A stretch of DNA of 23,768 nt. It comes from a virus. The stretch covers positions 1 through 23,768 of IMG/VR virus record IMGVR_UViG_3300030090_006326, one strand, 5' to 3'. Shown in pieces: positions 1 through 23,768 of this stretch (positions are counted from its first letter, which is position 1; each line of letters opens with the position of its first letter). The notes under the pieces were generated by a model, which saw nothing but the letters and a program-made list of their open reading frames with translations, was not told the DNA's origin and did no database searches. The translations under genes were made by a program, and so were the position numbers.

Positions 1-668
1 GTTGCTCTATTACGATATTTTTCTGCATGTTCACTTAACTCAAAACTACAAGGACATGCTGAAGAATAAACAAAGTCAAAGTGAATATATTTCTTAAATT
101 CTCCATCTTTAGTTAGATCACCTTCAAATACTACATCATAATATTGATAACCTTCTAGACCACTGCGTAAGCTTTTTTGCTTAATAGGATAAGATATCTT
201 TAACATGATACGGGAGTCAAAAGACTTAAGGTTATTTCTATATGTCTCTAAAACGTCTTTTATTTTACTGATACTAAAAACCTCGTCTTTGTGATCGTAA
301 AAACTTCTCATAATACGAGACATATTAATACCTTTTTTATGAGCCTCTAAACTAACACTACCAGTAACGCTAGTTTCTAGCTCGATAGTATCTCCGTTTC
401 TTTTTTTATAATTAAGAGGTAATTTGAAATTATGTATTCCAACTTGCTGAATAGGAACTGCTGCTCCTTGAATCAAACTAGAAGGACCATTCTGAAGATC
501 AGGTAAAGAGGAAATATACTTCTTATCAGCTTTTACTGTATTGTCGTATACTCTGATTGGAGGAAAATAACCTTTACTATATTCCTCGCCCATAATCTCT
601 TTAGCGATCTCATCCTTTTCTCCGGTCAGTTCATCATCCTCACCTAACCATTCATACTTGTTATCCAT
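1..668 (-). CDS. folE2: GTP cyclohydrolase type IB (FolE2), 3' end cut by window edge
   Basis: Likely converts GTP to 7,8-dihydroneopterin triphosphate, the entry step to 7-deazaguanines (queuosine or modified phage DNA) and folate. I translated this leftward frame by hand: 222 residues are visible before the window edge. Family marks are LPDLQNGP near residues 55-62 with IQQVGI at 73-78 (FolE2 proteins carry DVQN...P..IQRVG), KKGINMSR at 111-118, and SSACPCSFELSEH at 202-214. That last motif holds the cysteine region FolE2 uses for metal binding and catalysis. FolE2 proteins are usually about 260-300 residues, so some tens are missing. It is divergent from queD, whose product uses FolE2's product, and the two share a 71-base promoter region. 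FolE2 is unrelated in sequence to the commoner FolE. Identification is from motif recall, fairly sure. Confidence 0.85.
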   Translation of the reverse strand, partial: MDNKYEWLGEDDELTGEKDEIAKEIMGEEYSKGYFPPIRVYDNTVKADKKYISSLPDLQNGPSSLIQGAAVPIQQVGIHNFKLPLNYKKRNGDTIELETSVTGSVSLEAHKKGINMSRIMRSFYDHKDEVFSISKIKDVLETYRNNLKSFDSRIMLKISYPIKQKSLRSGLEGYQYYDVVFEGDLTKDGEFKKYIHFDFVYSSACPCSFELSEHAEKYRNRA

Positions 669-674
669 GCGTCT

Positions 675-702
675 ATTATATGAAATATTTTCTTAAGTTC
701 AA
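675..702 (-). promoter_or_regulatory. sigma70-like promoter for folE2
   Basis: Read on the minus strand, TTGAAC (702-697) is followed by exactly 16 bases and TATAAT (680-675). Only six bases separate the -10 box from the folE2 ATG at 668, so the predicted transcription start is the A of the start codon. The -35 box lies three bases from the -35 box of the opposing queD promoter, so the two sites sit back to back. Confidence 0.6.
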
Positions 703-705
703 CAC

Positions 706-733
706 TTGATTTCGGTTTAGAAATCGTTATAAT
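706..733 (+). promoter_or_regulatory. sigma70-like promoter for the queD operon
   Basis: TTGATT (706-711), 16-base spacer, TATAAT (728-733), then six bases to the queD ATG at 740. The expected start of transcription coincides with the start codon, and no Shine-Dalgarno sequence could fit. TTGATTTC is shared with the promoter at 23635. Confidence 0.65.
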
Positions 734-739
734 AGTCGT

Positions 740-1231
740 ATGTTTAGTAGTACTAAGATAATTGAACTTGGGAGTTGTGCATTTCGGCAACCTCAAGCAA
801 CATCGCATTGTCGATTCGTGCACGGATATCGTTTGATTGGTAAGTTTTGGTTTGGTGCTAATGAATTAGATGAGAATAATTGGGTTGTAGATTTCGGAGG
901 TCTAAAAGATCTAAAGAAGAAATTAGAAGAGCATTTTGATCATACAACTGTTATTGCTGATAATGATCCTGCTCTAGAGTCGTTTCGAAAACTACATGAT
1001 GAAGGTATTGTAGATTTGCGTGTTATGCATGGTGGAGTCGGTATCGAGAAATTTGCAGAACATTGTTTTAAATTAGCAGATAAACACGTTAAAGATCTTA
1101 CTAATAAGAGATGCTTTTGCTCTAAAGTAGAAGTTTTTGAACATGAGAAGAACTCCGCTATATATGAAAACAAGTATAATGTTATGGCATGGGCTAACGA
1201 ACAAAACGCAAGAATAAACAAAGGCCGCTAA
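740..1231 (+). CDS. queD: QueD, 6-carboxy-5,6,7,8-tetrahydropterin synthase family
   Basis: Predicted to convert dihydroneopterin triphosphate (the FolE2 product) to 6-carboxytetrahydropterin, second step to 7-deazaguanines. Of 163 residues, the recognisable marks are SHCRFVHGY (22-30) with the catalytic-type Cys24 and His28, VVDFGGLK (49-56), FDHTTVI (66-72), GVGIEKFAEHC (99-109) and VEVFEHEKNSA (130-140), all in the order expected of the PTPS/QueD fold. The classical zinc set is a first His in an F-x-A-A-H segment plus HGH. Here the first segment has no such His and HGH is HGY, so His23 and His28 may substitute. The start is fixed by the promoter six bases upstream. It is followed within two bases by a 49-residue gene and then queE. 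Confidence 0.85.
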   Translation: MFSSTKIIELGSCAFRQPQATSHCRFVHGYRLIGKFWFGANELDENNWVVDFGGLKDLKKKLEEHFDHTTVIADNDPALESFRKLHDEGIVDLRVMHGGVGIEKFAEHCFKLADKHVKDLTNKRCFCSKVEVFEHEKNSAIYENKYNVMAWANEQNARINKGR

Positions 1232-2127: not shown

Positions 2128-2543
2128 GAATAGTTGCTACTAATGGTTGTTTTGATATTATCCATGCTGGGCATGTTCAATATTTAAATGAAGCTAGGTC
2201 ATTAGGAGATAAGCTTATTGTTGGTCTAAACTCAGATAAGAGTGTCAGACAACTTAAAGGAGAAGATAGACCATATAATACTGAACAAAATCGCGCTGAG
2301 GTTCTTCTTGCATTAGAGAGTGTAGATCAAGTTATTATATTTGATAGTATTGATTGTCGCGGTTTTTTAAAAAAGGTACGTCCTGACATATATGTTAAAG
2401 GTGGAGATTATACTATAGATACTCTACCTGAATGTGAGAGAGAGACTATTCTCAGTTGTTGCAAAGAAGTAAGAATTCTTAAAAAATACGATAGTCTTTC
2501 TACATCTCAAATTATTGAAAAATTACGATTAACAGATAAATAG
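2124..2543 (+). CDS. RfaE2/HldE-C-type nucleotidyltransferase (sugar-1-phosphate or glycerol-phosphate type)
   Basis: 139 residues, matching the length of a stand-alone cytidylyltransferase-fold domain. NGCFDIIHAGHVQYL (7-21) carries the HxGH nucleotide-binding signature (HAGH, 14-17). GLNSDKSVRQLKG (34-46), RAEVLLALESVD (57-68), VRPDIYVKGGDY (85-96) and SLSTSQIIEKL (124-134) follow the order seen in D-glycero-beta-D-manno-heptose-1-phosphate adenylyltransferase, the C-terminal half of HldE. In bacteria this makes ADP-heptose for lipopolysaccharide. Start chosen at the ATG overlapping the queE stop (ATGA); a GTG further upstream is less likely because the family begins right at this point. 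No heptose isomerase or kinase of the pathway is visible, so the sugar substrate is open. Confidence 0.8.
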   Translation: MRIVATNGCFDIIHAGHVQYLNEARSLGDKLIVGLNSDKSVRQLKGEDRPYNTEQNRAEVLLALESVDQVIIFDSIDCRGFLKKVRPDIYVKGGDYTIDTLPECERETILSCCKEVRILKKYDSLSTSQIIEKLRLTDK

Positions 2544-4266: not shown

Positions 4267-4280
4267 ATATTAATATTTAT

Positions 4281-4308
4281 TTGATTTTTTCAATTATACT
4301 ACTAAAAT
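4281..4308 (+). promoter_or_regulatory. sigma70-like promoter for the glycan operon
   Basis: TTGATT (4281-4286), 16-base spacer, TAAAAT (4303-4308). It lies in the 46-base gap between phoH-like and the first glycosyltransferase. Four bases separate the -10 box from the first ATG (4313) and seven from a second in-frame ATG (4316), so the transcript should begin inside or just before the start codon. All genes from 4313 to 17419 lack further obvious promoters, so this may drive a 13-kb operon. Confidence 0.55.
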
Positions 4309-4312
4309 ATAT

Positions 4313-5152
4313 ATGATGAGAATATTGCTCGCGTGTTTATCCTATAGAGAGTTTACTGGTTCAGAGATATATTTTTATGAATTAGGTTCTGCTTTAAGAG
4401 ATGCTGGACATGACGTGTCTATATACTCTCAATTTACTAACGGACCATTAGTAAATAAAACTACAGATATTTCTTTCCCTACAAAAGATACAATTACTAA
4501 AGAAAAATATGACTTACTTATATTTTCTCATGGTAGAATTATATGGGAATATATTAAGGACGTAAAAGCTAAAAAAGTTATTAACGTCATACACTCTGAG
4601 GTTATAGATTTAGAACAACCAGTAATAAATGATAAGATTGACTTTTATGTAGGTATAAGGCCTTCTATAGTAGACTATGTAAGTTCTTTCGATATTAATA
4701 AACCAGTAGAATTAATTTACAATCCGTTTGATTTAAAGAGGTTCAACCCTAAAAATTGTAAAAAGAAAAACAAAAACAAAGAAAAGGTAGTATTATTTCC
4801 AGGTAGTTTAGATTATCTACGTTATCAACCTTTAAGGTACTTATTAGATTTATCTGTCAAACAAAATTTTAAAGTACTACATGTTGGAAGGAACGACTAT
4901 AGTACTGTACATCCGAATTTTACGACTCAAGAGCCTCGGTGGGATGTAGAAACTCTTTACAAAGAATGTGATATTGTTTCTGGTATATTTTTAGGTCGTA
5001 CTTCTATAGAAGGTTTGTTAGCTGGTAAGCGAGTTTTACAGTTCGATGTCGATAAAACAGGTAAAATTAAAAAGGTGTATTGGCACACTGAAAAAGATTT
5101 AGATAAATTTGATAAAAATAAAGTTGCTTTACAATTTATAAATGAAATTTGA
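4313..5152 (+). CDS. GT4-like (GT-B fold) glycosyltransferase
   Basis: 279 residues. The N-terminus MRILLACLSYREFTGSE leads into YFYELGSALRDAGHDVSIYS, the first Rossmann strand and helix of GT-B glycosyltransferases, with a Gly-Ser-Glu loop where acceptor-binding residues occur. The C-terminal half holds VVLFPGSLDYLRYQPLRYL, a nucleotide-sugar-domain opening, and IFLGRTSIEGLLAGKRVLQF, a degenerate form of the EX7E region with Glu kept in SIEGLLAGK. It is shorter than typical GT4 enzymes (350-400). Two ATG codons stand in tandem at 4313 and 4316; the promoter position favours 4316. The gene opens the glycan operon and its end overlaps the next by 11 bases. Donor and acceptor sugars are unknown. 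Confidence 0.7.
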   Translation: MMRILLACLSYREFTGSEIYFYELGSALRDAGHDVSIYSQFTNGPLVNKTTDISFPTKDTITKEKYDLLIFSHGRIIWEYIKDVKAKKVINVIHSEVIDLEQPVINDKIDFYVGIRPSIVDYVSSFDINKPVELIYNPFDLKRFNPKNCKKKNKNKEKVVLFPGSLDYLRYQPLRYLLDLSVKQNFKVLHVGRNDYSTVHPNFTTQEPRWDVETLYKECDIVSGIFLGRTSIEGLLAGKRVLQFDVDKTGKIKKVYWHTEKDLDKFDKNKVALQFINEI

Positions 5153-5861
5153 CGAATTTTTAAATGAGTACTTTGATCAGATCTATGTTATTAATCTAGA
5201 TCATAGGACAGATAGGCTTAATGAAGTTAACAGCTTACTCAAAAAGTACAATATTAACTTCAAAAGACAATCAGGTGTTTTCTTAAAAGAAAAATATACC
5301 GATGTCCTTAATAATACTACTAATACTTCTAGCTTAGGTCATTTAGGTTGTGTACTGAGTCATGTAAATTGTTGTATTGATGCTATAAAAAATAATTACG
5401 ATAAGATTTTAGTATTAGAAGATGATATTAATTTTATACCTGAACATATTGATTCCATTAACTATGATAAGTTGCTTAATGAAGTGAATAATATCGATTG
5501 GGGTTTGTTTTACTTAGGCGGTACGTATAACGACAAATTACAAAAAGTAACTACCTACCTAGACAGACCAACTGGTCCTGTGTTAGGTACTCAAAGTGTT
5601 GGTTATAGTAGACCAGTTATTGAGAAAATTGGAACAAAAATACCGAACAACCCAGAGTATTACGTAAAAGATAATCGCTTGGCGAGAGTTTTACCTATAG
5701 ATGTAATTTATAGCCGTAGTTTTGCTCGTGAACGGTGTATAGCTATAAATCCTATAGTTAGTGTACAAAATACTTCTATTAGTGACATCGTACCAGCTGA
5801 ACTAATGGTAGATAATACAGAGTATCAATTAAGCAGGTGGAATCGAAATAAATCTAGATGA
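5142..5861 (+). CDS. GT25-family glycosyltransferase (LPS-type)
   Basis: 239 residues. The GT25 pattern is complete: YVINLDHRTDR (15-25), GHLGCVLSH (66-74), KILVLEDDINF (88-98) with the acidic cluster at 92-95, then DWGLFYLGGTYN. GT25 members such as LgtB and LpsA transfer galactose or glucose to lipooligosaccharide acceptors. The start overlaps the upstream gene by 11 bases and the stop overlaps the fucosyltransferase start as ATGA, so translation is likely coupled. No signal peptide or membrane segment is seen, so it acts in the cytoplasm or at the inner membrane face. A second, divergent GT25 lies at 14717. Confidence 0.82.
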   Translation: MKFDEFLNEYFDQIYVINLDHRTDRLNEVNSLLKKYNINFKRQSGVFLKEKYTDVLNNTTNTSSLGHLGCVLSHVNCCIDAIKNNYDKILVLEDDINFIPEHIDSINYDKLLNEVNNIDWGLFYLGGTYNDKLQKVTTYLDRPTGPVLGTQSVGYSRPVIEKIGTKIPNNPEYYVKDNRLARVLPIDVIYSRSFARERCIAINPIVSVQNTSISDIVPAELMVDNTEYQLSRWNRNKSR

Positions 5862-6658
5862 TAACATTTCGCAAATTATGTAGGTTCGGTAATTTAGGCA
5901 ATAGTCTATTTCAATACGCGACATTATTAGGGGTTGGTTATAGAACAGGTTACAATATTTCAATACCTAAAAATGAAACATATTATGAAAGAGAATATGA
6001 TAACTATAACTATTCTATTTTTGACGGGTTTAATATTACAACTAATATATTAAAAAAAGATACTACAGAGTATACCTTTGAATACAATGGTATGGATTAC
6101 CAACCGACTATTTTTGATATTAGTGACAACACTAATTTACACGGATATTTTCAAAGTGAAAAATATTTTAATTTTTGTAGATCTTTAATCTTAGATAATT
6201 TAGTATTTAAAGAACATATAATTAAAGATAGTAAAAGGCTTTTTAATAATTTAAATATAGAACCAGAAGAAACTACCTCAATACACGTAAGGAGAGGAGA
6301 TTTTCTCAAGAGAACTCAGCATCACCCGATACAACCGCCAGAATATTATATAGAAGCAATAAAAAATACAAAAAATAAAAACTACTTATTTTTCTCTGAT
6401 GACATAGAATGGTGCAAGCAGTCTTTTAAAAAAAATAAAGATGTTTATTTTAGTGAAAATGTTAATCCTTTTGTTGACCTATATTCTATGTCAAAATGTA
6501 AACATAACGTTATAGTTAATAGTAGTTTTAGTTGGTGGGGCGCTTGGCTCAACACATACAAGGATAAGCGAGTTGTCGCGCCTACTAATTGGTTTGGACC
6601 TGCCTATAAAAATTTTACAACAAAAGATATAATACCTCAACAATGGATTTTAATTTAA
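5858..6658 (+). CDS. GT11 family fucosyltransferase (alpha-1,2-type)
   Basis: 266 residues. It carries the GT11 series: GNLGNSLFQYA (11-21), LHGYFQSEKYF (94-104), SIHVRRGDFL (141-150, the HxRRGD motif that binds GDP-fucose), FFSDD near residue 179, and the C-terminal SSFSWWGAWL. Family members move L-fucose from GDP-fucose onto galactose; one bacterial member, WbgN, is reported to act on GDP-colitose instead. The operon also holds gmd and a GDP-fucose synthase, so the donor can be made locally. The C-terminus DIIPQQWILI is nearly repeated in a short relic at 12151. The first base of ATG lies in an ATGA overlap with the GT25 gene. Confidence 0.87.
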   Translation: MITFRKLCRFGNLGNSLFQYATLLGVGYRTGYNISIPKNETYYEREYDNYNYSIFDGFNITTNILKKDTTEYTFEYNGMDYQPTIFDISDNTNLHGYFQSEKYFNFCRSLILDNLVFKEHIIKDSKRLFNNLNIEPEETTSIHVRRGDFLKRTQHHPIQPPEYYIEAIKNTKNKNYLFFSDDIEWCKQSFKKNKDVYFSENVNPFVDLYSMSKCKHNVIVNSSFSWWGAWLNTYKDKRVVAPTNWFGPAYKNFTTKDIIPQQWILI

Positions 6659-7300
6659 ATGAATGATTCACAGAAAAACTATGATCGTACATTACCTCAA
6701 TTAGTCTCGTATCCACGTACCGGTAGTCATTGGGTACGATTAGTTTTAGAGCAGTATTTAGATGAGTACTGTCGCCCAACTACATTTTTTGATTGCGACA
6801 ATTATTGGGGGTATCATCTTCACGATCGAATTGTAGGTCAAGGAGATGAAGGAATTACCGGTAATTTCGACAAAGTAATATATTTATATCGTAATCCTGT
6901 AGATACTATATTCTCTCAATTAACATATGAAGGTATGAATTGGGAAGATACAGACAATGTTGAGCAAATAATAGAGGAATATTTTAATCATTTAGATAGG
7001 TGGTTATTTAACAACGAGGATATCAAAGACATTATTTTCGTTAAATACGAAGAATTAAAATCCGATACTGTACGTACTTTTAGCAAAATTTTAACATTTT
7101 TAAACCGTGAGGTTGATAAAAGCAAACTATCTAAGATTTGTGAAGAAACAAGTATCAAACAAACAAAGGAAAAAACCGCGTTTGATCAAAACATTATAAA
7201 CACCGATCACTTCAACGGAGATTATGAGGTCAAAAAGAAAAAATTCTATAAAAAATATAAAAAAATTATATTAGATGAATTTTCTGCAGTATGGGAATAG
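6659..7300 (+). CDS. PAPS-dependent sulfotransferase
   Basis: 213 residues. The 5'-phosphosulfate-binding loop SYPRTGSHWVR (17-27) and the 3'-phosphate segment KVIYLYRNPVDTIFSQ (72-87, with Arg78 and Ser86) are both present, the hallmark pair of sulfotransferase family 1 enzymes that use 3'-phosphoadenylyl sulfate. FVKYEELKSD is the usual following helix cap. It starts right after the fucosyltransferase stop and overlaps the next gene by 10 bases. Its position between fucosyltransferases suggests it sulfates a sugar of the same glycan, but the acceptor could be a nucleotide sugar or lipid. Sulfotransferases are uncommon in phages. Length is slightly under the usual 250-300. Confidence 0.85.
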   Translation: MNDSQKNYDRTLPQLVSYPRTGSHWVRLVLEQYLDEYCRPTTFFDCDNYWGYHLHDRIVGQGDEGITGNFDKVIYLYRNPVDTIFSQLTYEGMNWEDTDNVEQIIEEYFNHLDRWLFNNEDIKDIIFVKYEELKSDTVRTFSKILTFLNREVDKSKLSKICEETSIKQTKEKTAFDQNIINTDHFNGDYEVKKKKFYKKYKKIILDEFSAVWE

Positions 7301-8190
7301 TATATAATATTTGGGATCATGAAATTGCGCACTGTTCTAATTTAAAGGAAGCGGGTTTGCGCTGCGGTGTACGGGATAGCTCTATAGCAATTAATTACGA
7401 ACAAGATATTACATGGACAAAAAAGCAAGATAGTGCGGATGTTACCTTTTTTACTGATAGGTGTTTAGTTGAAAATATTATTGATAGGGTTGATAGTAAT
7501 ATAAAAGTTGGCTGGCTTGTTGAACCGCGCGCATATCATCCTTATTATTATAAAAGTGTAGAGTTACTTGAAAATAAATTAAACTTTATTTTTACACATG
7601 ATGATTATCTCTTACGTAAAAATCCTGATAAATATAAGTTTTTAGCAGCTGACTGGGTTTGTATAGAACAAGAATCTCATAGAGTACATACTAAGACTAA
7701 TTTATTATCTATGATTTATTCCAATAAAGGAGAGTTAGATCGTACTCTTCGTGGTCAGGTCGCTACAAAATATAAAGAAAAAATTAATTTGTTCGGCACC
7801 GGTACATCATCTGGTCAGCTTAATCTTAAATCCTTCTCTCTTAACCCTTATTGTTTTTCTATTGCTATGGAAAACAGTATTGCTACAAACTATTATACAG
7901 AAAAAATTATAGATTGTTTTATTACAGGTAATGTACCAATATATAGAGGGTGCAATAATATTGGAGAATTCTTTGATGAGAGAGGTATTATTACATTTAA
8001 TGAGATTGAAGAGTTAGATTGTATAATAGATGAGTTAACATTCTCCAAATATATGGACATGTTACCACATATTAATAAAAACTTTGAAATAGCAAAAAAA
8101 TACATTAACCCTGATAATCTTTTAAATAAATTCATAGTTGCATTAAGGTCAGACTCATCCTATAATACTAAAGATTATTTTATATGTTAA
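7291..8190 (+). CDS. GT10 family fucosyltransferase (alpha-1,3/1,4-type)
   Basis: 299 residues. The C-terminal half has the GT10 donor-binding motif: CFSIAMENS (188-196, Glu194-Asn195), YYTEKIIDCFITGNVPIYRG (201-220) and IGEFFD. This matches the F..xxEN....YxTEK...A...G..PIYWG signature of bacterial and animal GT10 enzymes. The N-terminal half, with GWLVEPRAYHP (74-84), is the acceptor domain and is poorly conserved in the family. No membrane anchor is seen. The start overlaps the sulfotransferase by 10 bases and the end overlaps the next gene by seven. A divergent paralogue lies at 12192, sharing the WL.EP segment. Confidence 0.82.
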   Translation: MGIVYNIWDHEIAHCSNLKEAGLRCGVRDSSIAINYEQDITWTKKQDSADVTFFTDRCLVENIIDRVDSNIKVGWLVEPRAYHPYYYKSVELLENKLNFIFTHDDYLLRKNPDKYKFLAADWVCIEQESHRVHTKTNLLSMIYSNKGELDRTLRGQVATKYKEKINLFGTGTSSGQLNLKSFSLNPYCFSIAMENSIATNYYTEKIIDCFITGNVPIYRGCNNIGEFFDERGIITFNEIEELDCIIDELTFSKYMDMLPHINKNFEIAKKYINPDNLLNKFIVALRSDSSYNTKDYFIC

Positions 8191-8759
8191 AAGAGGACGC
8201 AAGCACATTTGACTTTTGGTTTAATAACAACGAGTTTGATGAACACGATCAATTTGGTAGTAATTACTATGTAAATACATTCTATAAAGATATAGTTTTT
8301 AATTTAGATATTCCAAAAGAAGGTTATATAGTTGTTGCTGGTACAGCTCGTGGTGTGTCGTTTGATTTATTATGCGAAAAGTACGGTCGAGACAGATGTA
8401 TAGGGTTTGATTTATTTAACCCTTCTAATCACTCTAATATTCGTATTAAAAATTGTTATGAATTAGGGGAAAAGGATAATATACCTATCGCGTTTGCTCA
8501 CAACGACATTGGTAGCATGGTACATACCCCTGATCTTAAGATACATACCCATAAATGGTTTATTAATAACGCTGTACCTGGAGGTATTATATTAGGTAAT
8601 AATAATTTAAATCGCGCTAAATTTAAATTTGAAGATATTATGTCTGAAAACAATTTCACAAACTATCAATTTGTCGATTTGCCAAATAATTTAACTAAAA
8701 ATTTGCCATATTCCCGTATAGAGGGTTATATGTATTCTATAAAAAATGAAAGTACTTAA
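8184..8759 (+). CDS. Probable class I methyltransferase-like (Rossmann) protein
   Basis: 191 residues. YIVVAGTARGVSFDLL (48-63) looks like motif I of a SAM-dependent methyltransferase with a glycine-turn variant, and RCIGFDLFNPS (71-81) like the acidic motif II strand. NNAVPGGIILGNNN resembles the strand following motif V. The usual GxGxG is replaced by G-T-A-R-G, so cofactor binding is uncertain. It overlaps both neighbours by a few bases (8184-8190 and 8746-8759), in the operon between a GT10 and an oxygenase. It may methylate a sugar, or be a structural relative without catalysis. Confidence 0.5.
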   Translation: MLKEDASTFDFWFNNNEFDEHDQFGSNYYVNTFYKDIVFNLDIPKEGYIVVAGTARGVSFDLLCEKYGRDRCIGFDLFNPSNHSNIRIKNCYELGEKDNIPIAFAHNDIGSMVHTPDLKIHTHKWFINNAVPGGIILGNNNLNRAKFKFEDIMSENNFTNYQFVDLPNNLTKNLPYSRIEGYMYSIKNEST

Positions 8760-9390
8760 TTTTAACAAAGAAGAATATCCGTTTAAAGAGTTAGTAGAAG
8801 AACTTTACGATATAAAGCTGAACGAACTTGATGATAATTTAGATCATAAAGAAGGTACTGTTGGTGCAGATACAGATTCAGTTTGGCATAAAACATTTTA
8901 CAATAAAATAAGAGAAGGCTATCCAGATTTTGTTAGTTTATATAAAAAGTTTATACAAAATTTTCTCAAACCTCTATTTGTAGATGAAGAAAAACTTATT
9001 TACCAAAAATTGCCTTCCTTCAGGGTGTGTCAACCGGGTGGTAAAGCTGTGTATATACCTCATTACGATGGAGATGCATTACACAAACACCCACCAGGCG
9101 AAATTAATATTTTTATGCCGCTAACTAAAGCTTATGGTAATAATTCTATGTACTTAGAATCAATACCAGGGTTAGGAGACTTTAAATCAGTTGATTTAGA
9201 TTACGGTAATGTGCTAATGTTTTATGGTAACAGACAAAGGCATTTTAACAAATATAATGATACAGGAAAAACTCGGTGTAGTTTTGATTTCAGAGTAATA
9301 CCGCCTGTGAATTACGACGAATCTTATGATTTAGAGAGTGCCACTATGAAAAACAAATTCGCCATCGGTGGTTATTACGATATTGTATAA
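8746..9390 (+). CDS. 2-oxoglutarate/Fe(II)-dependent oxygenase (StrG-like)
   Basis: 214 residues. The facial triad is visible: HYD at 106-108 (His106, Asp108) and His166 in GNRQRHFNKY. Arg177 in TRCSFDFRVIP is the expected 2-oxoglutarate ligand ten to eleven residues later. FRVCQPGGKAVYIPHYDGD (92-110), NIFMPLTKAYGNN (121-133) and YGNVLMFYG (153-161) make the double-stranded beta-helix core. The pattern recalls StrG-type oxygenases next to streptomycin sugar genes, from memory. It would hydroxylate or oxidise a small substrate, perhaps a sugar or lipid carried by this operon. The start overlaps the previous gene by 14 bases and the stop shares a base with the next (TAATG). Confidence 0.75.
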   Translation: MKVLNFNKEEYPFKELVEELYDIKLNELDDNLDHKEGTVGADTDSVWHKTFYNKIREGYPDFVSLYKKFIQNFLKPLFVDEEKLIYQKLPSFRVCQPGGKAVYIPHYDGDALHKHPPGEINIFMPLTKAYGNNSMYLESIPGLGDFKSVDLDYGNVLMFYGNRQRHFNKYNDTGKTRCSFDFRVIPPVNYDESYDLESATMKNKFAIGGYYDIV

Positions 9391-10070
9391 TGTTTACTGA
9401 TCTAAATGATGTAATACCGGGTCTTAATAAAGAAGGTTATGATATACAAGACCCGTGGGACGTGGTTGATGCGTTTGAAGATAAAATTGCGAAATTTGCT
9501 GGTAGTAAATATGCAGTATCTGTAGATAGTTGTACTAACGCTATGTTTCTGTGCTTGAAGTATTTGAAAGCAAAAGGATATATTAGATTACCAAAAAAAA
9601 CTTATTTATCAGTTCCTGGATTAGTAATTCATGCTGGTTGCAAAATTATTTTTGAAGACAAAGAATGGTCTGGGGTATACTCATTAGATCCTTTCCCGGT
9701 TGTAGATAGTGCTACAAGATTTACAGAAAATATGTATGTCAAAGGTACGTTTCAGTGCTTATCTTTTCATATTAGAAAAATATTACCTATAGCGAAAGGG
9801 GGTATGATATTAACAGATAATAAAAACGCTGTAGAGTGGTTCAAACTCGCTCGATATGAAGGTAGAAATAATCGCGTACCACATGATTCTATAGATGATA
9901 TTGATATGATTGGCTGGAATTTCTACATGCCTCCAGAACAAGCAGCAAGAGGTATAGAGCTATTTAATAATTTACCTAAAGTAAATAAAGACTCTGGCGG
10001 TTCGTGGAAGTATACAGATCTCTCAAACTATTCAGCGTGGAAAGATCACGTGTATACAAGTAAATACTAG
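9390..10070 (+). CDS. Half-length DegT/DnrJ/EryC1/StrS aminotransferase-like protein
   Basis: 226 residues against about 370-400 for the family. It keeps the large PLP domain: KYAVSVDSCTNAMFLCLKY (40-58), PVVDSATRF (103-111, Asp106 stacking the cofactor), CLSFHIRKILPIAKGG (123-138) with Lys130 in the place of the PLP lysine, and IGWNFYMPPEQAARGIELF (174-192). The small C-terminal domain is missing. The frame reaches a normal stop and then the next gene starts two bases later, so this is not an obvious recent frameshift. DegT enzymes make amino sugars on nucleotide carriers. Without the C-terminal domain it may have lost activity, or act with the ColD-like protein at 10965; that is speculation. 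Confidence 0.7.
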   Translation: MFTDLNDVIPGLNKEGYDIQDPWDVVDAFEDKIAKFAGSKYAVSVDSCTNAMFLCLKYLKAKGYIRLPKKTYLSVPGLVIHAGCKIIFEDKEWSGVYSLDPFPVVDSATRFTENMYVKGTFQCLSFHIRKILPIAKGGMILTDNKNAVEWFKLARYEGRNNRVPHDSIDDIDMIGWNFYMPPEQAARGIELFNNLPKVNKDSGGSWKYTDLSNYSAWKDHVYTSKY

Positions 10071-10072
10071 AA

Positions 10073-10978
10073 ATGAAAAAAGTATTAGTTACTGGAGGTA
10101 CTGGATTAGTAGGTACAGCCATTGAAGCTGACATAAAAGTTGGCACTAAAGAGGCAGATTTAAGGGATTGGGATCAAACAAATAAACTTATTGAAAACCA
10201 CAAACCAACTCACGTGGTTCATACTGCCGCAAGAGTCGGTGGTGTTGGTGGGAACATGCGAGCTAAAGGAGAGTTTTATTATGACAATATCAGAATTAAC
10301 ACTAATGTATTAGAGTCGTGTAGAATTAACAATGTAGAAAAGGTTGTCTCAATACTATCTACATGTATTTTTCCTGATAAAGTTGAATACCCTCTTACAG
10401 AGAAAAAAATTCATTTAGGTGCCCCGCATAAGTCGAATTATGGTTATGCTTATGCTAAAAGGATGCTAGATGTACAGACTGAAGTATATAGAGAACAATA
10501 TAATGTTAACTATACATGTGTAGTACCCACAAATATATATGGACCTAATGATAATTTTGATATTGATAATGGTCATGTATTACCGTCATTAATACACAAG
10601 TGTTATATCGCTAAACAAAACAATACAAATTTAGAGGTGTGGGGCTCTGGTGAGCCTTTACGAGAGTTTATATACAGTAAGGATATAGGAAAACTAATTA
10701 ATTGGGCGTTAGATAATTATGATGACCCAGAGTCAATTATTTTTTCTACATCTCACGAGATTTCTATTAAAGATGTAGTTGGTTTAATAGTTGACGCTAT
10801 GGGTTTTACAGGGAAAGTAATATTTGATACAACGAAGCCAGAGGGTCAATTTAGAAAGCCATCTGACAATTCAAAATTATTATCTCTTCTACCAGATTTT
10901 AAATTCACACCTATAGATGTTGGTATAAAAGAAACAGTAGAATGGTTTACTAATAATTTTGATAATGCCAGAAAATAA
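10073..10978 (+). CDS. fcl: GDP-L-fucose synthase (GFUS/Fcl type)
   Basis: 301 residues. Converts GDP-4-keto-6-deoxy-D-mannose to GDP-L-fucose by epimerisation at C3/C5 and NADPH reduction at C4. Marks: VTGGTGLVG (6-14) binds NADP; ARVGGVGGN (53-61); SILSTCIFPDK (93-103, Cys98 as the epimerase cysteine); YGYAYAKR (123-130), whose YxxxK pair is Tyr125 and Lys129; and GHVLPSLIHK (167-176, His168). The C-terminus (FDTTKPEGQFRKPSDNSK, then KETVEWFTNNFDNARK) closely recalls animal GFUS/FX, more than E. coli Fcl. The enzyme of the dideoxy sugar colitose, ColC, is a homologue, so that alternative is not excluded. Next gene overlaps by 14 bases. Confidence 0.85.
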   Translation: MKKVLVTGGTGLVGTAIEADIKVGTKEADLRDWDQTNKLIENHKPTHVVHTAARVGGVGGNMRAKGEFYYDNIRINTNVLESCRINNVEKVVSILSTCIFPDKVEYPLTEKKIHLGAPHKSNYGYAYAKRMLDVQTEVYREQYNVNYTCVVPTNIYGPNDNFDIDNGHVLPSLIHKCYIAKQNNTNLEVWGSGEPLREFIYSKDIGKLINWALDNYDDPESIIFSTSHEISIKDVVGLIVDAMGFTGKVIFDTTKPEGQFRKPSDNSKLLSLLPDFKFTPIDVGIKETVEWFTNNFDNARK

Positions 10979-12158
10979 AATTAGCCTTGTTAGTGACACT
11001 ATCGATAGACAAGATATAGATAGTCTAATCGAGTGGTTGTCTCAAGAACCATTGCCCCGTCTAACTAAAGGAGATCTCACCAAAAAGTTAGAAGACAACT
11101 GGGCTAAAAAGATAGGTACGAAGTATAGTGTGTATGTAAACTCTGGTTCTTCTGCTATTTTATTAATGTTAGCCGCTTTAAAGTATATGAGCGAAGATAA
11201 ACCTACGTCATATACTCGTTTAAAAAACAACAAAGTTGTTGTACCTAATTTAAGCTGGGCAACAGATGTATCTACCCCTCACTTATTAGGTTATGATGTT
11301 ACGTTAGTTGATTGTAATCTGGATAATTTAAGTGTAGACTTAGAAGAATTAGAAAAAGTATTTATAGAGCAAGACCCCGCAGTATTTCTTTTAGTTTCTG
11401 TGTTAGGTTTTGTACCAGATATGGCCGAGATAGTTCGACTGTGTAGTAAATACAACGTTATATTATTAGAGGATGTTTGTGAATCTATGGGGTCTGAAAG
11501 TAATAATAGAATGCTAGGACAATTTGGTTTAAGTTCCTGTTTTTCGTTATTTTTCGGTCATCATTTATCGACAATAGAAGGTGGTTTTATTAATACACAT
11601 AACGAAGAATTATATAACTTATTAGTTAGCTTAAGAAGTCATGGTTGGGATCGAGACTGTACTGCAAGTTATCAAACTAAATGGAGAAAAGAATATGAGG
11701 TGGATGAATTTTCAAGTTTGTATACATTTTTTTATCCAGGGTTTAATGTACGCAGTACTGACCTACAAGCATATCTTGGTTTAAGACAAATAGAAAAATT
11801 AGATTGCTACAAATTAACTCGTAATCACAATTATAAGTTGTATAAAAAGTTTATTACTAATAACAAATTAAACTTAGAAGAAAAAAATCAAGATTTTATC
11901 TCTAATTTTGCGTATCCTGTTGTTGCAGAAAATAGAAAAGATATAGTACGTAGATTAAAAGACAATAATATTGAAGTAAGGCCTTTAATTGCAGGAGCAA
12001 TGCATCAAAAACCGTTCGTGAAAAAATATTTAAAAGACCAAGCATGTAAAACATTTCCGAACTGCGAGTTATTAGATAAAGAAGGTTTCTATATACCTAA
12101 TCATCCGTTTTTATCGGAAGCAGATATTAAATTTATAGCAGATATAGTAAATGAATAA
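10965..12158 (+). CDS. DegT-family 3-dehydratase-like protein with His in place of the PLP lysine (ColD/RfbH-like)
   Basis: 397 residues from the ATG at 10965 (a TTG two codons earlier, at 10959, is a weaker start). PLP-fold marks: VNSGSSAILL (58-67), PNLSWATDVS (94-103), LLEDVCESMGS (167-177) with cofactor Asp170, and SLFFGHHLSTIEGGFIN (194-210). In aminotransferases the lysine Schiff base is at the position of His199. The HH-S-T-x-EGG variant is that of ColD, the GDP-4-keto-6-deoxymannose 3-dehydratase of colitose synthesis, and a similar HH occurs in RfbH. It may therefore remove the 3-hydroxyl of a 4-keto-6-deoxy sugar using PMP and glutamate. Full length, unlike the gene at 9390. Confidence 0.75.
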   Translation: MPENKISLVSDTIDRQDIDSLIEWLSQEPLPRLTKGDLTKKLEDNWAKKIGTKYSVYVNSGSSAILLMLAALKYMSEDKPTSYTRLKNNKVVVPNLSWATDVSTPHLLGYDVTLVDCNLDNLSVDLEELEKVFIEQDPAVFLLVSVLGFVPDMAEIVRLCSKYNVILLEDVCESMGSESNNRMLGQFGLSSCFSLFFGHHLSTIEGGFINTHNEELYNLLVSLRSHGWDRDCTASYQTKWRKEYEVDEFSSLYTFFYPGFNVRSTDLQAYLGLRQIEKLDCYKLTRNHNYKLYKKFITNNKLNLEEKNQDFISNFAYPVVAENRKDIVRRLKDNNIEVRPLIAGAMHQKPFVKKYLKDQACKTFPNCELLDKEGFYIPNHPFLSEADIKFIADIVNE

Positions 12159-12207
12159 AAAATCAAATAATCACGATATTATACCTAAAGAATGGATAAT
12201 CGTATAA
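12151..12207 (+). pseudogene. Relic of a GT11 fucosyltransferase C-terminus
   Basis: An 18-codon frame starting eight bases before the stop of the ColD-like gene encodes NNHDIIPKEWIIV at its end. The neighbouring GT11 at 5858 ends KDIIPQQWILI, also right at its stop codon. DIIP..WI matches at both ends, and the DNA shares GATAT, ATACCT and AATGGA in register. This looks like the last few codons of a second, mostly deleted GT11 gene, or a recombination scar. Chance similarity of ten residues cannot be excluded. The GT10 start at 12192 lies inside it. Confidence 0.45.
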
Positions 12208-12995
12208 AAATTAGATTAATAGATAAGACCTTTTCACATTGTGAATTTAGTAATAACCCAATCCCTATTATTAATAAATCAAAATTTATTGAGTGGGTTA
12301 GGGAAGATAGTGATAACGAATTAGTTGTCTATACTGATAGTTATATCAAACTAATTAATTCTACAAATTCGATAGCTTGGTTATTAGAGCCTGAAGAAAC
12401 AAAGGCTGCAGGATATAGATTCGTAAGAGAAAATTTTAAAAAATTCTCTTCCGTATGGACGTGGGATAAAGTTTTATTAGAAACAATACCTAATACTGTT
12501 TTCTACCCAGTCGGTGGGTGTTGGATAGAGCCTAAAGATAGAGTAGTTCATAAAAAAACTAAATTAACTTCTATGATATTTTCTAAGAAAAAAAAATTAC
12601 CAGGCCATATTTTACGACATAAAATATTTGATAATTTTCATGATAAAATAATTTATTTTCAAAAAATAAAAAACAAAATAGAAGGATTAAAACATTTTAT
12701 GTTTCATGTTGTAGTAGAGAGTGTAAAAAAAGATTTTTATTTTACTGAAAAATTAATAGACTCGTTTATTACAGGAACTATACCTGTATATTGGGGTTGC
12801 CCATCAATTTGCAATTTTTTTAATACCGACGGTATGATTATCTTTAATGACATTAATGAATTAAACCAAAAATTAGAAATGTGCACCAAAGAGACATATT
12901 ATAACAAACTACCCGCTGTATTAGAGAACTACGAATTAGCAAAAAAGTATGTTCTCGCTGAAGATTGGATATACAACAATATCTTACATAAATAA
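12192..12995 (+). CDS. GT10-like fucosyltransferase, divergent
   Basis: 267 residues. MFHVVVESV (170-178) followed by FYFTEKLIDSFITGTIPVYWG (182-202) and ICNFFN is the GT10 donor motif. The usual Glu-Asn pair is Glu176-Ser177 here. SIAWLLEPEE (60-69) aligns with GWLVEPRA of the first GT10. Upstream 30-110 is the variable acceptor domain. Its Lys-rich, A-rich stretch around 12590-12670 gives very AT-rich codons. It uses GDP-fucose most likely, or GDP-colitose if the ColD-like gene works. Five bases after its stop comes the gmd start. Confidence 0.7.
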   Translation: MDNRIKIRLIDKTFSHCEFSNNPIPIINKSKFIEWVREDSDNELVVYTDSYIKLINSTNSIAWLLEPEETKAAGYRFVRENFKKFSSVWTWDKVLLETIPNTVFYPVGGCWIEPKDRVVHKKTKLTSMIFSKKKKLPGHILRHKIFDNFHDKIIYFQKIKNKIEGLKHFMFHVVVESVKKDFYFTEKLIDSFITGTIPVYWGCPSICNFFNTDGMIIFNDINELNQKLEMCTKETYYNKLPAVLENYELAKKYVLAEDWIYNNILHK

Positions 12996-12999
12996 CAAA

Positions 13000-13965
13000 G
13001 TGAAGACTGCATTAATTACAGGTATTACTGGGCAAGATGGTTCTTATTTAGCGGAGTTATTGTTAAATAAGGGGTACGATGTGTGGGGTACTTTACGTAG
13101 ACATTCCACACCGCAAAATCAAACCGCAAGAATAGATCATATTTTCAGTAGATTAAAACTTGTATACGCTGATTTAACTGATTTTTCCTCGTTGATACAA
13201 GCTATTAAGAAGAGTCAGCCTGATGAAATTTATAATTTAGCAGCTCAATCCCACGTACGTATAAGTTTCGATCAACCTGTATTTACAGGTAATGTGACAG
13301 GTCTAGGTACTTTGAACATGCTAGAAGCAATCCGTCTTATTAACCCTAAAATTAAAATGTACCAAGCATCTTCTAGCGAAATGTTTGGTAACAGTATAGA
13401 CGCGGATGGTTATCAGCGAGAGACTACACCGTTAATACCTGTGTCTCCGTATGGTTGCGCTAAAGTTTACTCTTATAATATATGTAACAACTATAAAAAC
13501 AGTTACAATATGTTTATTAGTAATGGTATTTTATTTAACCATGAATCCCCACGCCGCGGTATAAATTTTGTTACTAATAAAGTAGTAAAGTCTGCTGTCG
13601 ATATTAAGAAAGGCTTAATAGACACTCTCCCTATGGGTAATTTAGAAGCTACGAGAGATTGGGGTCATGCAAAAGATTATGTCCAAGCTATGTGGTTAAT
13701 GCTCCAACAAGACAAACCTGATAATTTCGTTTGCGCAACAGGTATTTCTCACTCCGTAGGGGAGTTAATTAAGTATGTATTTGGTAAGCTTGGATTAGAT
13801 TGGTCAGAGTATATTACTCAAGATGAGAAGTTTTTGCGACCAGAAGAGTTAACTGACCTCAAAGGAGATTCTAGTAAGGCGCGAAAAATTTTAGGTTGGA
13901 AATCAGAATATACTTTTGAAACTATGCTCGATGAAATGATAGATTTTTGGTTAAATGAAAGATAA
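13000..13965 (+). CDS. gmd: GDP-mannose 4,6-dehydratase
   Basis: 321 residues from GTG 13000; a frame opening at 12949 would overlap the previous gene and add residues the family lacks. Converts GDP-D-mannose to GDP-4-keto-6-deoxy-D-mannose, the first committed step to GDP-fucose. TALITGITGQDGSYLAELL (3-21) is the NADP loop. NLAAQSHV (79-86), YQASSSEMFGN (121-131, Ser124-126 and Glu127), PYGCAKVYSYN (150-160, Tyr151 and Lys155) and FNHESPRRG (179-187) are as in Gmd. It supplies the fucose synthase at 10073 and possibly the ColD-like protein. The last 11 bases overlap the zinc-ribbon miniprotein. Confidence 0.9.
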   Translation: MKTALITGITGQDGSYLAELLLNKGYDVWGTLRRHSTPQNQTARIDHIFSRLKLVYADLTDFSSLIQAIKKSQPDEIYNLAAQSHVRISFDQPVFTGNVTGLGTLNMLEAIRLINPKIKMYQASSSEMFGNSIDADGYQRETTPLIPVSPYGCAKVYSYNICNNYKNSYNMFISNGILFNHESPRRGINFVTNKVVKSAVDIKKGLIDTLPMGNLEATRDWGHAKDYVQAMWLMLQQDKPDNFVCATGISHSVGELIKYVFGKLGLDWSEYITQDEKFLRPEELTDLKGDSSKARKILGWKSEYTFETMLDEMIDFWLNER

Positions 13966-14128
13966 GTGTGTTATATGCGATACAGATACTCAATATGATG
14001 AATTTACTCATATTGATATGAGATATTATTATATAGAGGGTTGCGGTCAGTTATGCCCTAAGTGTTATAACGATACATATGAAAGTAGCAGCGACAATAC
14101 CTATAAAGAGCAATTCGACGAGAGTTAA
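13955..14128 (+). CDS. Small zinc-ribbon protein (57 aa)
   Basis: This frame overlaps the end of gmd by 11 bases and the start of the CMP-sugar synthetase by 50. Its 57 residues have two CxxC pairs: C-V-I-C at 5-8 and C-P-K-C at 34-37, with MRYYYIEGCGQLC leading into the second. That spacing (26 residues between pairs) suits a single zinc ribbon. Similar CxxC...YYVEGxGQLC proteins are, from memory, widespread hypotheticals in marine phages. The frame uses a different register from both neighbours, yet the cysteine order is coherent, so I take it as real. Nucleic acid or protein binding is possible; function unknown. Confidence 0.65.
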   Translation: MKDKCVICDTDTQYDEFTHIDMRYYYIEGCGQLCPKCYNDTYESSSDNTYKEQFDES

Positions 14129-14720
14129 AAATAAGAATTTTCGACTTTTAGGAGGTAAGCCTCTCTATGAATATATTATAGATCATTGTATTCAAGCTGA
14201 ATGCTTTGATGATATATATGTAGATACAGATAGTCCTGAGATTAATAGTTATTGTACAAAAAATCATGTTGTATGTATAAACCGTAAACCAGAGCTCACA
14301 TTAGATACTGCGAACGGTAACGATGTATTTCATTACGATGTAGATTTTATAGGTCATTATGATTTTTACTTTCAATTATACGCTACTGCTCCGTTTTTAA
14401 AACCTGAGACTATTAGAGACTGTGTAGATAAGTTAACTCATAGTTCAAAGCATGATTCTATACTTACAGCTACAGAAGAATATGGTTGGTTTTGGCATAA
14501 AGATCAACCTGTAAACTATCAGCCTAATATACTTCCTAGATCGCAAGACGCTACACCAGTTATTAAAGAGACAACAGGGTTATACGGTATATCTAAACGG
14601 GCCTACGAGCGGTATAGGTGTAGGGTAGGTGCTACTCCATACTTCTATATTATAAGGGACAGAAAAGAGTGTATTGATTTAGATACCATGGCGGATTTTG
14701 AAATAGCCGAGAAAATATGA
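14079..14720 (+). CDS. CMP-sugar synthetase (NeuA/KdsB-like)
   Basis: 213 residues. IPIKSNSTRVKNKN (7-20) is the nucleotide-binding opening of acylneuraminate/KDO cytidylyltransferases, where the canonical form is IPARGGSKRIPxKN. YVDTDSPEI, FQLYATAPFLKPETI, LPRSQDATPVIKETTGLYG and IDLDTMADFEIAE follow in family order. It would join CTP to a 2-keto sugar acid such as sialic, pseudaminic, legionaminic acid or KDO. No NeuB-like synthase or other gene to make such a sugar is in the window, so the substrate would come from the host or elsewhere in the genome. ATGA overlap with the next gene couples translation. Confidence 0.8.
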   Translation: MKVAATIPIKSNSTRVKNKNFRLLGGKPLYEYIIDHCIQAECFDDIYVDTDSPEINSYCTKNHVVCINRKPELTLDTANGNDVFHYDVDFIGHYDFYFQLYATAPFLKPETIRDCVDKLTHSSKHDSILTATEEYGWFWHKDQPVNYQPNILPRSQDATPVIKETTGLYGISKRAYERYRCRVGATPYFYIIRDRKECIDLDTMADFEIAEKI

Positions 14721-15415
14721 GAAGTATTTTAAAAGACACTTTCGAAAAAATTTATTGTATAAATCTCGATTCTAGATTAGATAAATGGAAATCTGTTACT
14801 AAAGAATTTAAAAAATATAACATTGAAGATATCGTCGAACGTTACCCAGGTCATACCAGCAAAGGAAATAGCTGTGGTCGTGGATGTTCCCTTTCTTATT
14901 TTAATTTACTCAAAAAATGTAAGAACGACAAAATAAATCAAGTCTTAGTTTTTGAAGATGATGTCGAATTTTTGACATTTAGCTTAGATTACATTAATAA
15001 GAAAAATATTAAAATTGATAGTAATCCTGCAGACATATTATATAAAGGATTGACTCAATTAAAAAAAATTAAATGGGATATTTTTTATTTAGGTTTTAAT
15101 ATTAAATTGAAAGAGTTTTGCCATAAGGAAATCTTAAGCGATAATTTATTTAAAGCAACTAATCAATTAACTACTCATAGTGTTGCATTTAATAATAGTG
15201 TATATGACGTAATTATCGAAGATTTTCTGCGAAGTGAGTTCATGATTGATACATATTTAGGTTATTATTTGTCTCATAAAATTAATAGTATAAATTTATA
15301 CCCTATGATTACTGGGCAAAAAATAAATTTTACAAGCGATATAACTCATAAAAAATCTCCCAACAAATGGATACATAAAAATGTATTACATAATTTTATG
15401 AACTACGAGAAATGA
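14717..15415 (+). CDS. GT25-like glycosyltransferase, second copy
   Basis: 232 residues. KIYCINLDSRLDKW (11-24) and QVLVFEDDVEF (75-85, acidic residues at 80-82) are GT25 motifs, with CSLSYFNLLKKC between them in place of the usual GxxGCxxSH. KWDIFYLGFNIK matches the DWGLFYLGG of the copy at 5142. The sequence is otherwise quite divergent and Lys/Asn-rich. It probably transfers a hexose to the glycan; donor unknown. Coupled at both ends by ATGA overlaps. Confidence 0.75.
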   Translation: MRSILKDTFEKIYCINLDSRLDKWKSVTKEFKKYNIEDIVERYPGHTSKGNSCGRGCSLSYFNLLKKCKNDKINQVLVFEDDVEFLTFSLDYINKKNIKIDSNPADILYKGLTQLKKIKWDIFYLGFNIKLKEFCHKEILSDNLFKATNQLTTHSVAFNNSVYDVIIEDFLRSEFMIDTYLGYYLSHKINSINLYPMITGQKINFTSDITHKKSPNKWIHKNVLHNFMNYEK

Positions 15416-16506
15416 AAATTGCGGTGTTATTTTATGGGCAACCACGTTTTTTTAATATAACTAAAGGTTTTATTAAAAAGGAATTTACGTTTGATGGTCA
15501 TACTACTCATTATTTCGCACATTTATGGGAAAATGTAGGGTATACCCCTGATGGTGTTGAGCAAACTGAAAGAGAGCTTACTGAAGATATTTTATCTAAT
15601 TATTTCTTAGTTAAAAATTATAAAATTGAAGACAATGAGTATATGTTTAAACTAATAGACTCGTTCAAACACATTTTTTCTATATTAAAACAGGAAACTA
15701 ATCAAAATATACCAGTTAGTTCTTTAGATAACGACTTGAGATATAAATTTTCTCAGCATTACAGTATTAGTCAAGCATTTAATTTACTTAGAGAGTATGA
15801 AAAATTACATAATTTTAAATATGATTTAGTTATAAAAGCGCGAACAGATATAGTATATACTACACAAGACGTGTACTCGAGTTTAAAAGATTATAATTTA
15901 TATAAAAACAATTCATATTTTGATATAGATATCGATATACCTGCAGTAAAATGTAATGGCTTGCGTATTATACAATTAAACGATACAGATAAAGAAAACC
16001 CCCGGTGGGACGATCAATATGTTTATAGTTTTTACAATAAAAGAGTTAAATTTTTAGAAGATAAAAATAATACTCGGTTTGGTTTTCCATATAATTATTC
16101 GTGGAACAATAGACTAGCCTTTAATGATTGGACATTAATTGCGAATCGAAAAGCAGCAGAAATTATGTACTCGGGGTGGTATACATCTTATATTCAAGCC
16201 TTAGGGTTAGATATAGATAAAAATATATCTTGTATATTACAAGATAAAACAAAGTTAAAAAAGAAACCGAAATTTATTTCTAATTCAGAACACACCTTAC
16301 AAGGATTTATGTCTTATAAAAATAACATAAAGACTAGCAGAGTTAGTCCTCATAGGAGAGATTATAAACTATTAAATAAAAATGAAATAAAAGAAAACGT
16401 AACATCGAGAGATAAAATATTAGCAAAAACTGAAGAGGATATTACCGCAGGAATTCGAAAAATTTTTAATATTAGATACCCTTCGTTTTTAAGAAAAAAT
16501 GTCTGA
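15412..16506 (+). CDS. R(T/S)D-motif putative glycosyltransferase, copy 1
   Basis: 364 residues. The N-terminus MKIAVLFYGQPRFF and the HLWENVGY segment near residue 37 closely match the protein at 18759. YDLVIKARTDIVY (137-149, Arg144-Asp146) holds a basic-acidic motif where GT-A enzymes have DxD, and FNDWTLIANRKAAEIM follows. From memory, such GQPR...R(T/S)D proteins occur in viruses and bacterial capsule clusters, but with no characterised activity that I can name. Three copies are in this window. A metal-dependent sugar transferase is likely, substrate unknown. Its start overlaps GT25 by four bases; its end overlaps the next copy by eight. Confidence 0.55.
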   Translation: MKIAVLFYGQPRFFNITKGFIKKEFTFDGHTTHYFAHLWENVGYTPDGVEQTERELTEDILSNYFLVKNYKIEDNEYMFKLIDSFKHIFSILKQETNQNIPVSSLDNDLRYKFSQHYSISQAFNLLREYEKLHNFKYDLVIKARTDIVYTTQDVYSSLKDYNLYKNNSYFDIDIDIPAVKCNGLRIIQLNDTDKENPRWDDQYVYSFYNKRVKFLEDKNNTRFGFPYNYSWNNRLAFNDWTLIANRKAAEIMYSGWYTSYIQALGLDIDKNISCILQDKTKLKKKPKFISNSEHTLQGFMSYKNNIKTSRVSPHRRDYKLLNKNEIKENVTSRDKILAKTEEDITAGIRKIFNIRYPSFLRKNV

Positions 16507-17419: not shown

Positions 17420-17969
17420 CCATTATACCACCTCGTACATTATCTACATCTCTAGGTTTTGGATTATTTAAGAGAGACTCAAACTTCGGTATCCACCACT
17501 TTTTTTTATGTTCTTGTATTAAGTGTAATTCCCCTACTTGTTTTCTATGAGATGCGCTTGGGTTTGTGTTAATGGTATGAAACATACATTTACGTGTTAC
17601 TCTTATCATTTCTGATATAGTTTTATCTATAAAATCTGGGTGTACATGCTCTAAAAAATCAAAAGATGTGGTCATATCCACACTTTTATCTGGTAATGGT
17701 ATATCGTGACTAACTCCTTTTAAAAATTTTATATCTTTTTTTTCAAATTCTGGTTTTGGATTAATCGAAATATCTAAACCATATACTGTATCGCATAATT
17801 CGGTTTTTGCCCAATCGCAAAATTGCCCGGCCCCAGTACCTACGTCAAGTATAGAGTTTATTTTCAATAATTTTAAAAACTGCAAATGATTTTTTGCGTG
17901 AAACCCATTCCCATATCCTTTAGTACCTAACCAATCATATGTTTTTTTTATATCAGCTATTGTTTCCAT
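17409..17969 (-). CDS. Class I SAM-dependent methyltransferase
   Basis: 186 residues. SILDVGTGAGQFCDW (39-53) is motif I, YGLDISINPKP (63-73) supplies the acidic cofactor residue, and TSFDFLEHVHPD with EMIRVTRK matches motif IV-VI of UbiE/methyltransferase-11 proteins. GELHLIQEHKKKWW is a common feature of sugar-cluster methyltransferases. It is last in the leftward block of four genes and its start overlaps the preceding gene by 13 bases. Likely O- or N-methylates a sugar or small metabolite. It is short but reads to a normal end. Confidence 0.75.
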   Translation of the reverse strand: METIADIKKTYDWLGTKGYGNGFHAKNHLQFLKLLKINSILDVGTGAGQFCDWAKTELCDTVYGLDISINPKPEFEKKDIKFLKGVSHDIPLPDKSVDMTTSFDFLEHVHPDFIDKTISEMIRVTRKCMFHTINTNPSASHRKQVGELHLIQEHKKKWWIPKFESLLNNPKPRDVDNVRGGIMVIL

Positions 17970-20920: not shown

Positions 20921-20921
20921 G

Positions 20922-20935
20922 TATAATTAATTATA
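20922..20935. promoter_or_regulatory. Palindromic divergent -10 region
   Basis: TATAATTAATTATA is a perfect 14-base palindrome, so each strand reads TATAAT. It lies in the 20-base gap between the divergent starts at 20920 and 20941, nine bases from the leftward ATG and 13 from the rightward one. No good -35 box at the right spacing is seen for either direction, so this is a candidate, not an assured promoter. Confidence 0.4.
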
Positions 20936-20940
20936 GAGTT

Positions 20941-21342: not shown

Positions 21343-21346
21343 ATGA

Positions 21347-23634: not shown

Positions 23635-23662
23635 TTGATTTCTGCTCTAGTTATTTTATAAT
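23635..23662 (+). promoter_or_regulatory. sigma70-like promoter for the right-edge gene
   Basis: TTGATT (23635-23640), 16-base spacer, TATAAT (23657-23662), then seven bases to ATG 23670. It starts one base past the methyltransferase ATG on the other strand. It shares the TTGATTTC run and spacing with the queD promoter, and again leaves no room for a ribosome-binding site. Confidence 0.65.
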
Positions 23663-23669
23663 ACTTACT

Positions 23670-23768
23670 ATGATTTTGAGAGATATCGATATCTATGATG
23701 GTAATCTTATTCACGGACGGTTTGCTTATAAATATTTTCGCAAAAAGACTCTTCCAATTGGTAACATT
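23670..23768 (+). CDS. DUF366-like protein, N-terminal part only
   Basis: 33 residues are visible before the window ends, starting MILRDIDIYDGNLIHGRFAY. DIYDGNLIHGRFAYKYF followed by PIGNI fits, from memory, the opening of DUF366 proteins (a short strand, a Gly, then H/W..R..Y, and a GxI-V turn), a family of unknown function that I recall near queuosine-pathway genes in some phages and archaea. With so few residues this is tentative. The start is set by the promoter seven bases upstream. A TATAAATA string at 23727 lies inside the frame. Confidence 0.45.
   Translation, partial: MILRDIDIYDGNLIHGRFAYKYFRKKTLPIGNI

Follow-up and report, generated by a model that had tools for sequence, protein, structure and literature searches.

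The divergent genes folE2 and queD of this uncultured virus very probably have back-to-back sigma-70-type promoters of a T4-superfamily phage, with the predicted first transcribed base (+1) of each at the A of the ATG start codon. RNA polymerase would then initiate on the first base of that codon, so that the folE2 and queD mRNAs would be leaderless or would carry at most one or two leader bases. Comparison with related phages supports, as far as sequences can tell, the existence across one lineage of two promoter classes that drive leaderless expression.

The probable promoter pair between folE2 and queD

We analyzed a window of 23,768 nt (the whole stretch of viral DNA under study), in which the identities of folE2, queD and phoH were confirmed by Pfam (Table 1). 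A previous sequence-only reading had described TTGAAC-N16-TATAAT-N6-ATG in front of folE2 on the minus strand and TTGATT-N16-TATAAT-N6-ATG in front of queD on the plus strand, and both sites read as claimed. Each matches the sigma-70 consensus (TTGACA-like and TATAAT) at 10 of 12 positions, with a 16-nt spacer that falls inside the 15–19 nt range. The six bases between the -10 box and the ATG are AGACGC for folE2 and AGTCGT for queD, giving predicted +1 positions of 668 and 740, respectively. The same reading had listed two additional sites of this kind. The 16-nt spacer was found at both, and the site before the gene at 23670 has the TATAAT box followed by N7, whereas the site before the glycosyltransferase gene has TAAAAT, not TATAAT, and lies either 4 or 7 nt from an ATG; relatives favor the ATG at 4316 (N7), which is better conserved than the one at 4313.

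Table 1 Promoter elements and genes of the window (window coordinates)
Feature	Position	Strand	Remarks
folE2, GTP cyclohydrolase, PF02649	3..668	minus	cut by window end; ATG 668-666
folE2 -10 box TATAAT	675..680 (reads 680-675)	minus	N16 from -35 box; kept in clade relatives, also where folE replaces folE2
folE2 -35 box TTGAAC	697..702 (reads 702-697)	minus	
queD -35 box TTGATT	706..711	plus	3 bp from the opposed folE2 -35 box
queD -10 box TATAAT	728..733	plus	kept in nearly all queD homologues
queD, PF01242	740..1231	plus	ATG 740-742 is the sole in-frame start
Possible late-like box GATAAATA	2535..2542	plus	5 nt before AAA_28 kinase-like gene, ATG 2548
phoH, PF02562	3475..4266	minus	
T4-late-like box AATAAATA	4274..4281	minus	7 nt before phoH ATG; adjoins opposed -35 box
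TTGATT-N16-TAAAAT promoter of glycosyltransferase gene	4281..4308	plus	ATG 4313 (N4) or 4316 (N7)
Glycosyltransferase family 4-like gene	4313..5152	plus	match below Pfam cut-off
TTGATT-N16-TATAAT promoter	23635..23662	plus	N7, then ATG 23670
Conserved gene, function unknown	23670..23768	plus	cut by window end; 195 aa in relative L052

Relatives of queD were collected from 34 loci in IMG/VR. Of 29 loci, with protein identities down to ~60%, nearly all have TTGA-N16-(TATAAT or a close variant)-N5/6-ATG before queD, and the spacer sequence varies freely among them. For three loci (L022, L023 and L033) the automated best-window pick differs and the N16 reading was present on inspection of the sequences, the variants among them being TTGAAT-N16-TACTAT-N6-ATG and TTGATT-N16-TAATAT-N6-ATG. 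At three others (L016, L029 and L032), TATAAT-N6-ATG is intact and the -35 box is weaker (TGG for TTG), and L031 has TTGACT with N17. The promoter of the gene at 23670 is kept as TTGATT-N16-TATWAT-N6/7-ATG in ~20 loci at 65–100% identity. At one locus (L014, 1460–1570), the stretch between the opposed promoters is gone and CATGCGTCTATTAT is joined to the queD ATG, reflecting either a natural deletion between inverted copies or an assembly fault.

At five loci (L004, L008, L009, L013 and L015), the same promoter is followed on the minus strand by a gene that starts with MSELLQYANG and not as folE2 does. In L013 this gene is folE (PF01227, E 8.5e-47), whose product is unrelated to FolE2 and catalyzes the same reaction. 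Judged by these matches, the exchange of FolE for FolE2 is a non-orthologous replacement of GTP cyclohydrolase in which the promoter–ATG junction was kept (FolE itself being shown for L013).

Early-type and late-type boxes across the lineage

The pattern scan that the sequence-only reading had suggested was run on 15 related records and returned 49 matches, compared with 6 when the pattern was reversed; the same scan of eight control T4-superfamily records gave 20 and 16, respectively. In 420 kb of related contigs, TTGANN-N16-TANNAT occurs 102 times, and 31 of the 37 occurrences within 40 nt of a called ATG lie at 4–8 nt. The motif might have been as frequent inside genes as before them; in these contigs, TTGA-N18-TANNAT sites before called starts peak sharply at 6 nt from the ATG. 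This distance peak is strong only at a spacer of 16, with a small echo at 17 and none at 13–15 or 19–20. Across 164 related loci (1.73 Mb), with gene calls from a simple longest-ORF script, 78 of the 92 non-redundant TTGA-N18-TANNAT sites are 4–8 nt from the ATG (binomial p ~1e-49 against an even spread over 0–32), and the mode is 6 nt, with 39 sites. The start codons after the promoter boxes are ATG (74), GTG (11) and TTG (1), a strong preference for AUG.

A second box emerged from de novo k-mers at transcription-unit starts, where ATAAATA and TAAATAT stand 4–8 nt before the ATG. Non-redundant NATAAATA boxes end 3–8 nt before the ATG in 66 of 117 cases and 3–10 nt before it in 80 of 117; most end at 5–8 nt, and some in the group lie more than 10 nt away. 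We call the two classes early-type and late-type by their resemblance to T4, not by a time course. At the strict thresholds applied, many transcription-unit starts have neither of the two boxes.

Among genes picked by length rather than at random, many of them lacking a PHROG match, those behind early-type boxes encode UvsX, two primases, two SSBs, GTP cyclohydrolase, nucleotide-sugar epimerase, DNA polymerase and helicase, and those behind late-type boxes encode tail fibre, terminase large subunit, tail sheath, tape measure, two tail tubes, head-tail adaptor and one HNH endonuclease. This split fits the early and late logic of T4, which argues that both classes are real promoters. As a rule of the lineage, early-type TTGA-N18-TATAAT promoters before replication and nucleotide-metabolism genes and late-type NATAAATA promoters before virion genes, the latter presumably read with a gp55-like sigma of the phage, would both be fused to the ATG. 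Sub-threshold Sigma70_r2 hits to such a sigma were obtained in 8 of 13 large records, and in the one record scanned against PHROGs it matched phrog_234 (late sigma factor) with E 7e-29.

In the window, the late-like box of phoH is kept in ~11 relatives at 66–98% identity, and the GATAAATA box is a weak candidate, as it shares bases with the upstream stop codon. Depending on the relative, the AAA_28 kinase-like gene behind the latter (window 2548; L050, L233 and L235) is preceded by either a fused early-type promoter or a late-like box, which suggests that its promoter class has switched. At 20920–20945, AATTAATTATAC directly precedes the ATG of a minus-strand radical SAM gene and is kept in seven relatives (67–94% identity); here, TTGAAA lies ~14 nt before a TATAAT-like box, a poor fit to either promoter class. 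The region from 4313 to 23634 is dense with glycosyltransferase-like, sugar-nucleotide, aminotransferase, methyltransferase and radical SAM genes, and this block probably serves surface-glycan or virion decoration functions.

Translation signals and alternative readings

Shine-Dalgarno sequences are at background level in the lineage, occurring at 131 of 1915 gene starts against 144 of 1915 in the control interval. This holds in all gene classes of the lineage, with one record (G023) slightly above control; in T4, 36 of 72 starts have one. For gaps of 9–60 nt, a Shine-Dalgarno sequence was found in 6 of 196 genes of the group versus 12 of 13 in T4. Gaps between same-strand neighbors peak at -4 and -1, with a tightness similar to that of control phages. 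Downstream cistrons sit tightly against the stop codon of the gene before them, as translational coupling would predict, and such coupling is a plausible route for their translation. A pyrimidine precedes the ATG in 52 of 78 early-type and 48 of 66 late-type sites versus 131 of 250 internal genes (p 0.03 and 0.003, respectively), an excess that is expected of a Y-A initiator and is a modest sign of +1 at the A of the ATG.

According to published work, leaderless bacterial genes are marked by a TA-like signal that lies ~12 bp ahead of the start codon (PMC3160421). Viewed by the criterion of that study, the placement of the -10 box at the 92 non-redundant sites, with its mode at N6, would put +1 on the start codon. 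The offset from the -10 box to +1 varies by a few bases, and sites at 7–9 nt could leave leaders of 1–3 nt. The promoter class for leaderless mRNAs that had been proposed from the window alone is borne out in its geometry and its lack of Shine-Dalgarno sequences. The class looks sigma-70-type and early or replicative and need not be specific to the phage, and it is one of two such classes, as a T4-late-like box is placed likewise.

An alternative, which we consider unlikely, is that these are ordinary host-type promoters followed by short real leaders (~5–15 nt) that result from genome compactness, with Shine-Dalgarno-independent initiation on leadered mRNAs as in Bacteroidetes. The coding density of ~95% agrees with it, as does the absence of Shine-Dalgarno sequences, which is shared with bacteria that lack them and use leadered mRNAs (PMC6847099). 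However, compactness predicts a spread of distances instead of a mode at 6 nt with almost nothing at 10–32 nt, and T4 and P-SSM2, similar in GC content and compactness, keep 16–36 nt between the late box and the ATG. We also rejected a Bacteroidetes-type promoter, since the boxes are not TAnnTTTG (PMC6847099), and an archaeal promoter, since the TATA box of leaderless archaeal genes lies ~25–37 nt upstream (PMC3160421) versus TATAAT at -12 and TTGA at -34 here.

The opposed -10 boxes, discriminators and ATGs form a palindrome, CATGCGTCTATTATA...TATAATAGTCGTATG, that could itself be a functional operator or hairpin with a secondary likeness to promoters. It is imperfect (window 660–745; AGACGC against AGTCGT), and its 86-nt DNA fold beats 200 of 200 shuffles (z -4.3). 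We nevertheless find this reading very improbable and rejected the palindrome as a functional element, because L015, where the discriminators diverge (AAACTC versus AGGTTT), has lost the symmetry and kept the geometry of both promoters; moreover, distant homologues keep the queD promoter without an opposed partner. Equally little credence goes to the boxes being an mRNA-level translation signal that is transcribed from further upstream. Their tie to the ATG, and not to operon borders alone, would suit such a signal, but one set fits a bacterial -35/-10 arrangement with a fixed spacer and the other fits the T4 late promoter, each class stands before the expected class of genes, and the sites in the window are at divergent gene starts.

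Generic scans of the window for sigma-70 promoters and terminators gave no excess over shuffles; sigma-70-like sites numbered 107 versus 108.8 expected, as they would if the boxes were chance strings in AT-rich sequence. The sequence-only reading had called chance unlikely, and indeed the window has 3 copies of TTGANN-N15..17-TATAAT-N4..8-ATG, whereas dinucleotide shuffles average 0.13 and 0 of 100 reach 3. The signal in the window lies in exact boxes that combine with N16 and the distance to the ATG. With this strict geometry enriched here, absent from other T4-like phages, and conserved across homologues while the spacer varies freely, chance has a negligible probability and was ruled out.

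Lineage identity and known systems

The relatives carry a gp20 portal (phrog_213, E 1.6e-108) and a gp43 polymerase (phrog_262, E 7.6e-189) that are ~30% identical to those of Kyanoviridae and pelagiphages, so they fall within the T4 superfamily, outside every cultured group. The window, a 23.8 kb fragment without gp20 or gp43, is linked to the lineage via synteny of the queD locus with two records that carry the portal and are 94–100% identical to each other (G002 and G003). Comparison of the window with phages by blastn returned only a 71-nt phoH match. In search of the host, genome contigs searched with the polymerase and portal yielded no relatives, and tblastn of QueD, PhoH and QueE in cultured phages returned only distant hits (<60% identity) that give no host clue. 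The hosts would probably be bacteria capable of translating leaderless mRNA efficiently.

The classic leaderless phage mRNA is that of lambda cI from PRM, with transcription starting at the AUG. Lambda has a single leaderless gene, whereas the lineage described here would have a genome-wide habit. Leaderless initiation was first found in lambda (cited in PMC3160421). The leaderless TA-led genes of bacteria such as Actinobacteria and Deinococcus-Thermus (PMC3160421) have, as here, a -10 box that begins ~12 nt before the start and no Shine-Dalgarno sequence; in contrast, the phages of the present lineage are lytic, their -35 box is clear and stands at a rigid N16, and two promoter classes are involved. 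The late promoters of T4 and cyanophages (TATAAATA / NATAAATA with gp55; PMC2984593) share the box, a gp55-like sigma and the virion genes downstream. However, all sampled late boxes of T4, Syn9, P-SSM2 and C48C1 are 16–36 nt upstream of the ATG, with room for a leader and a Shine-Dalgarno sequence, compared with mostly 5–8 nt in the lineage, and these four phages use Shine-Dalgarno sequences and lack the fused-promoter pattern. Some late boxes of the pelagibacter phages HTVC008M (L075–L077) and Mosig (L078–L080) end 5 nt before the ATG, as in the lineage (exactly so for 6 of 7 in the 60 kb of HTVC008M sampled). Unlike the lineage, these two phages have Shine-Dalgarno sequences at ~40% of starts and no early fused class, and they possibly represent a mixed or intermediate state. 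A non-exhaustive search of the open-access literature, with subscription journals outside its coverage, found no description of a leaderless T4-like phage.

A bolder reading, to which we give slightly less than even chances, is that a whole T4-superfamily lineage has dispensed with leaders and Shine-Dalgarno sequences, such that every promoter-proximal gene would be leaderless and its abundant aquatic hosts would mainly translate leaderless mRNAs. In phages, leaderless mRNAs usually count as exceptions. An uncultured aquatic lytic lineage with records of 105–200 kb, in which early and late promoters are locked to the start codon, would offer a clean system in which to study ribosome takeover and leaderless translation, and a natural genome-wide test of the latter. 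Its Shine-Dalgarno-free, leaderless habit may be a clue to the host. Furthermore, the promoter here would fix both the start codon and the class of the gene, which may allow better gene-start calls and the prediction of early and late genes from sequence alone.
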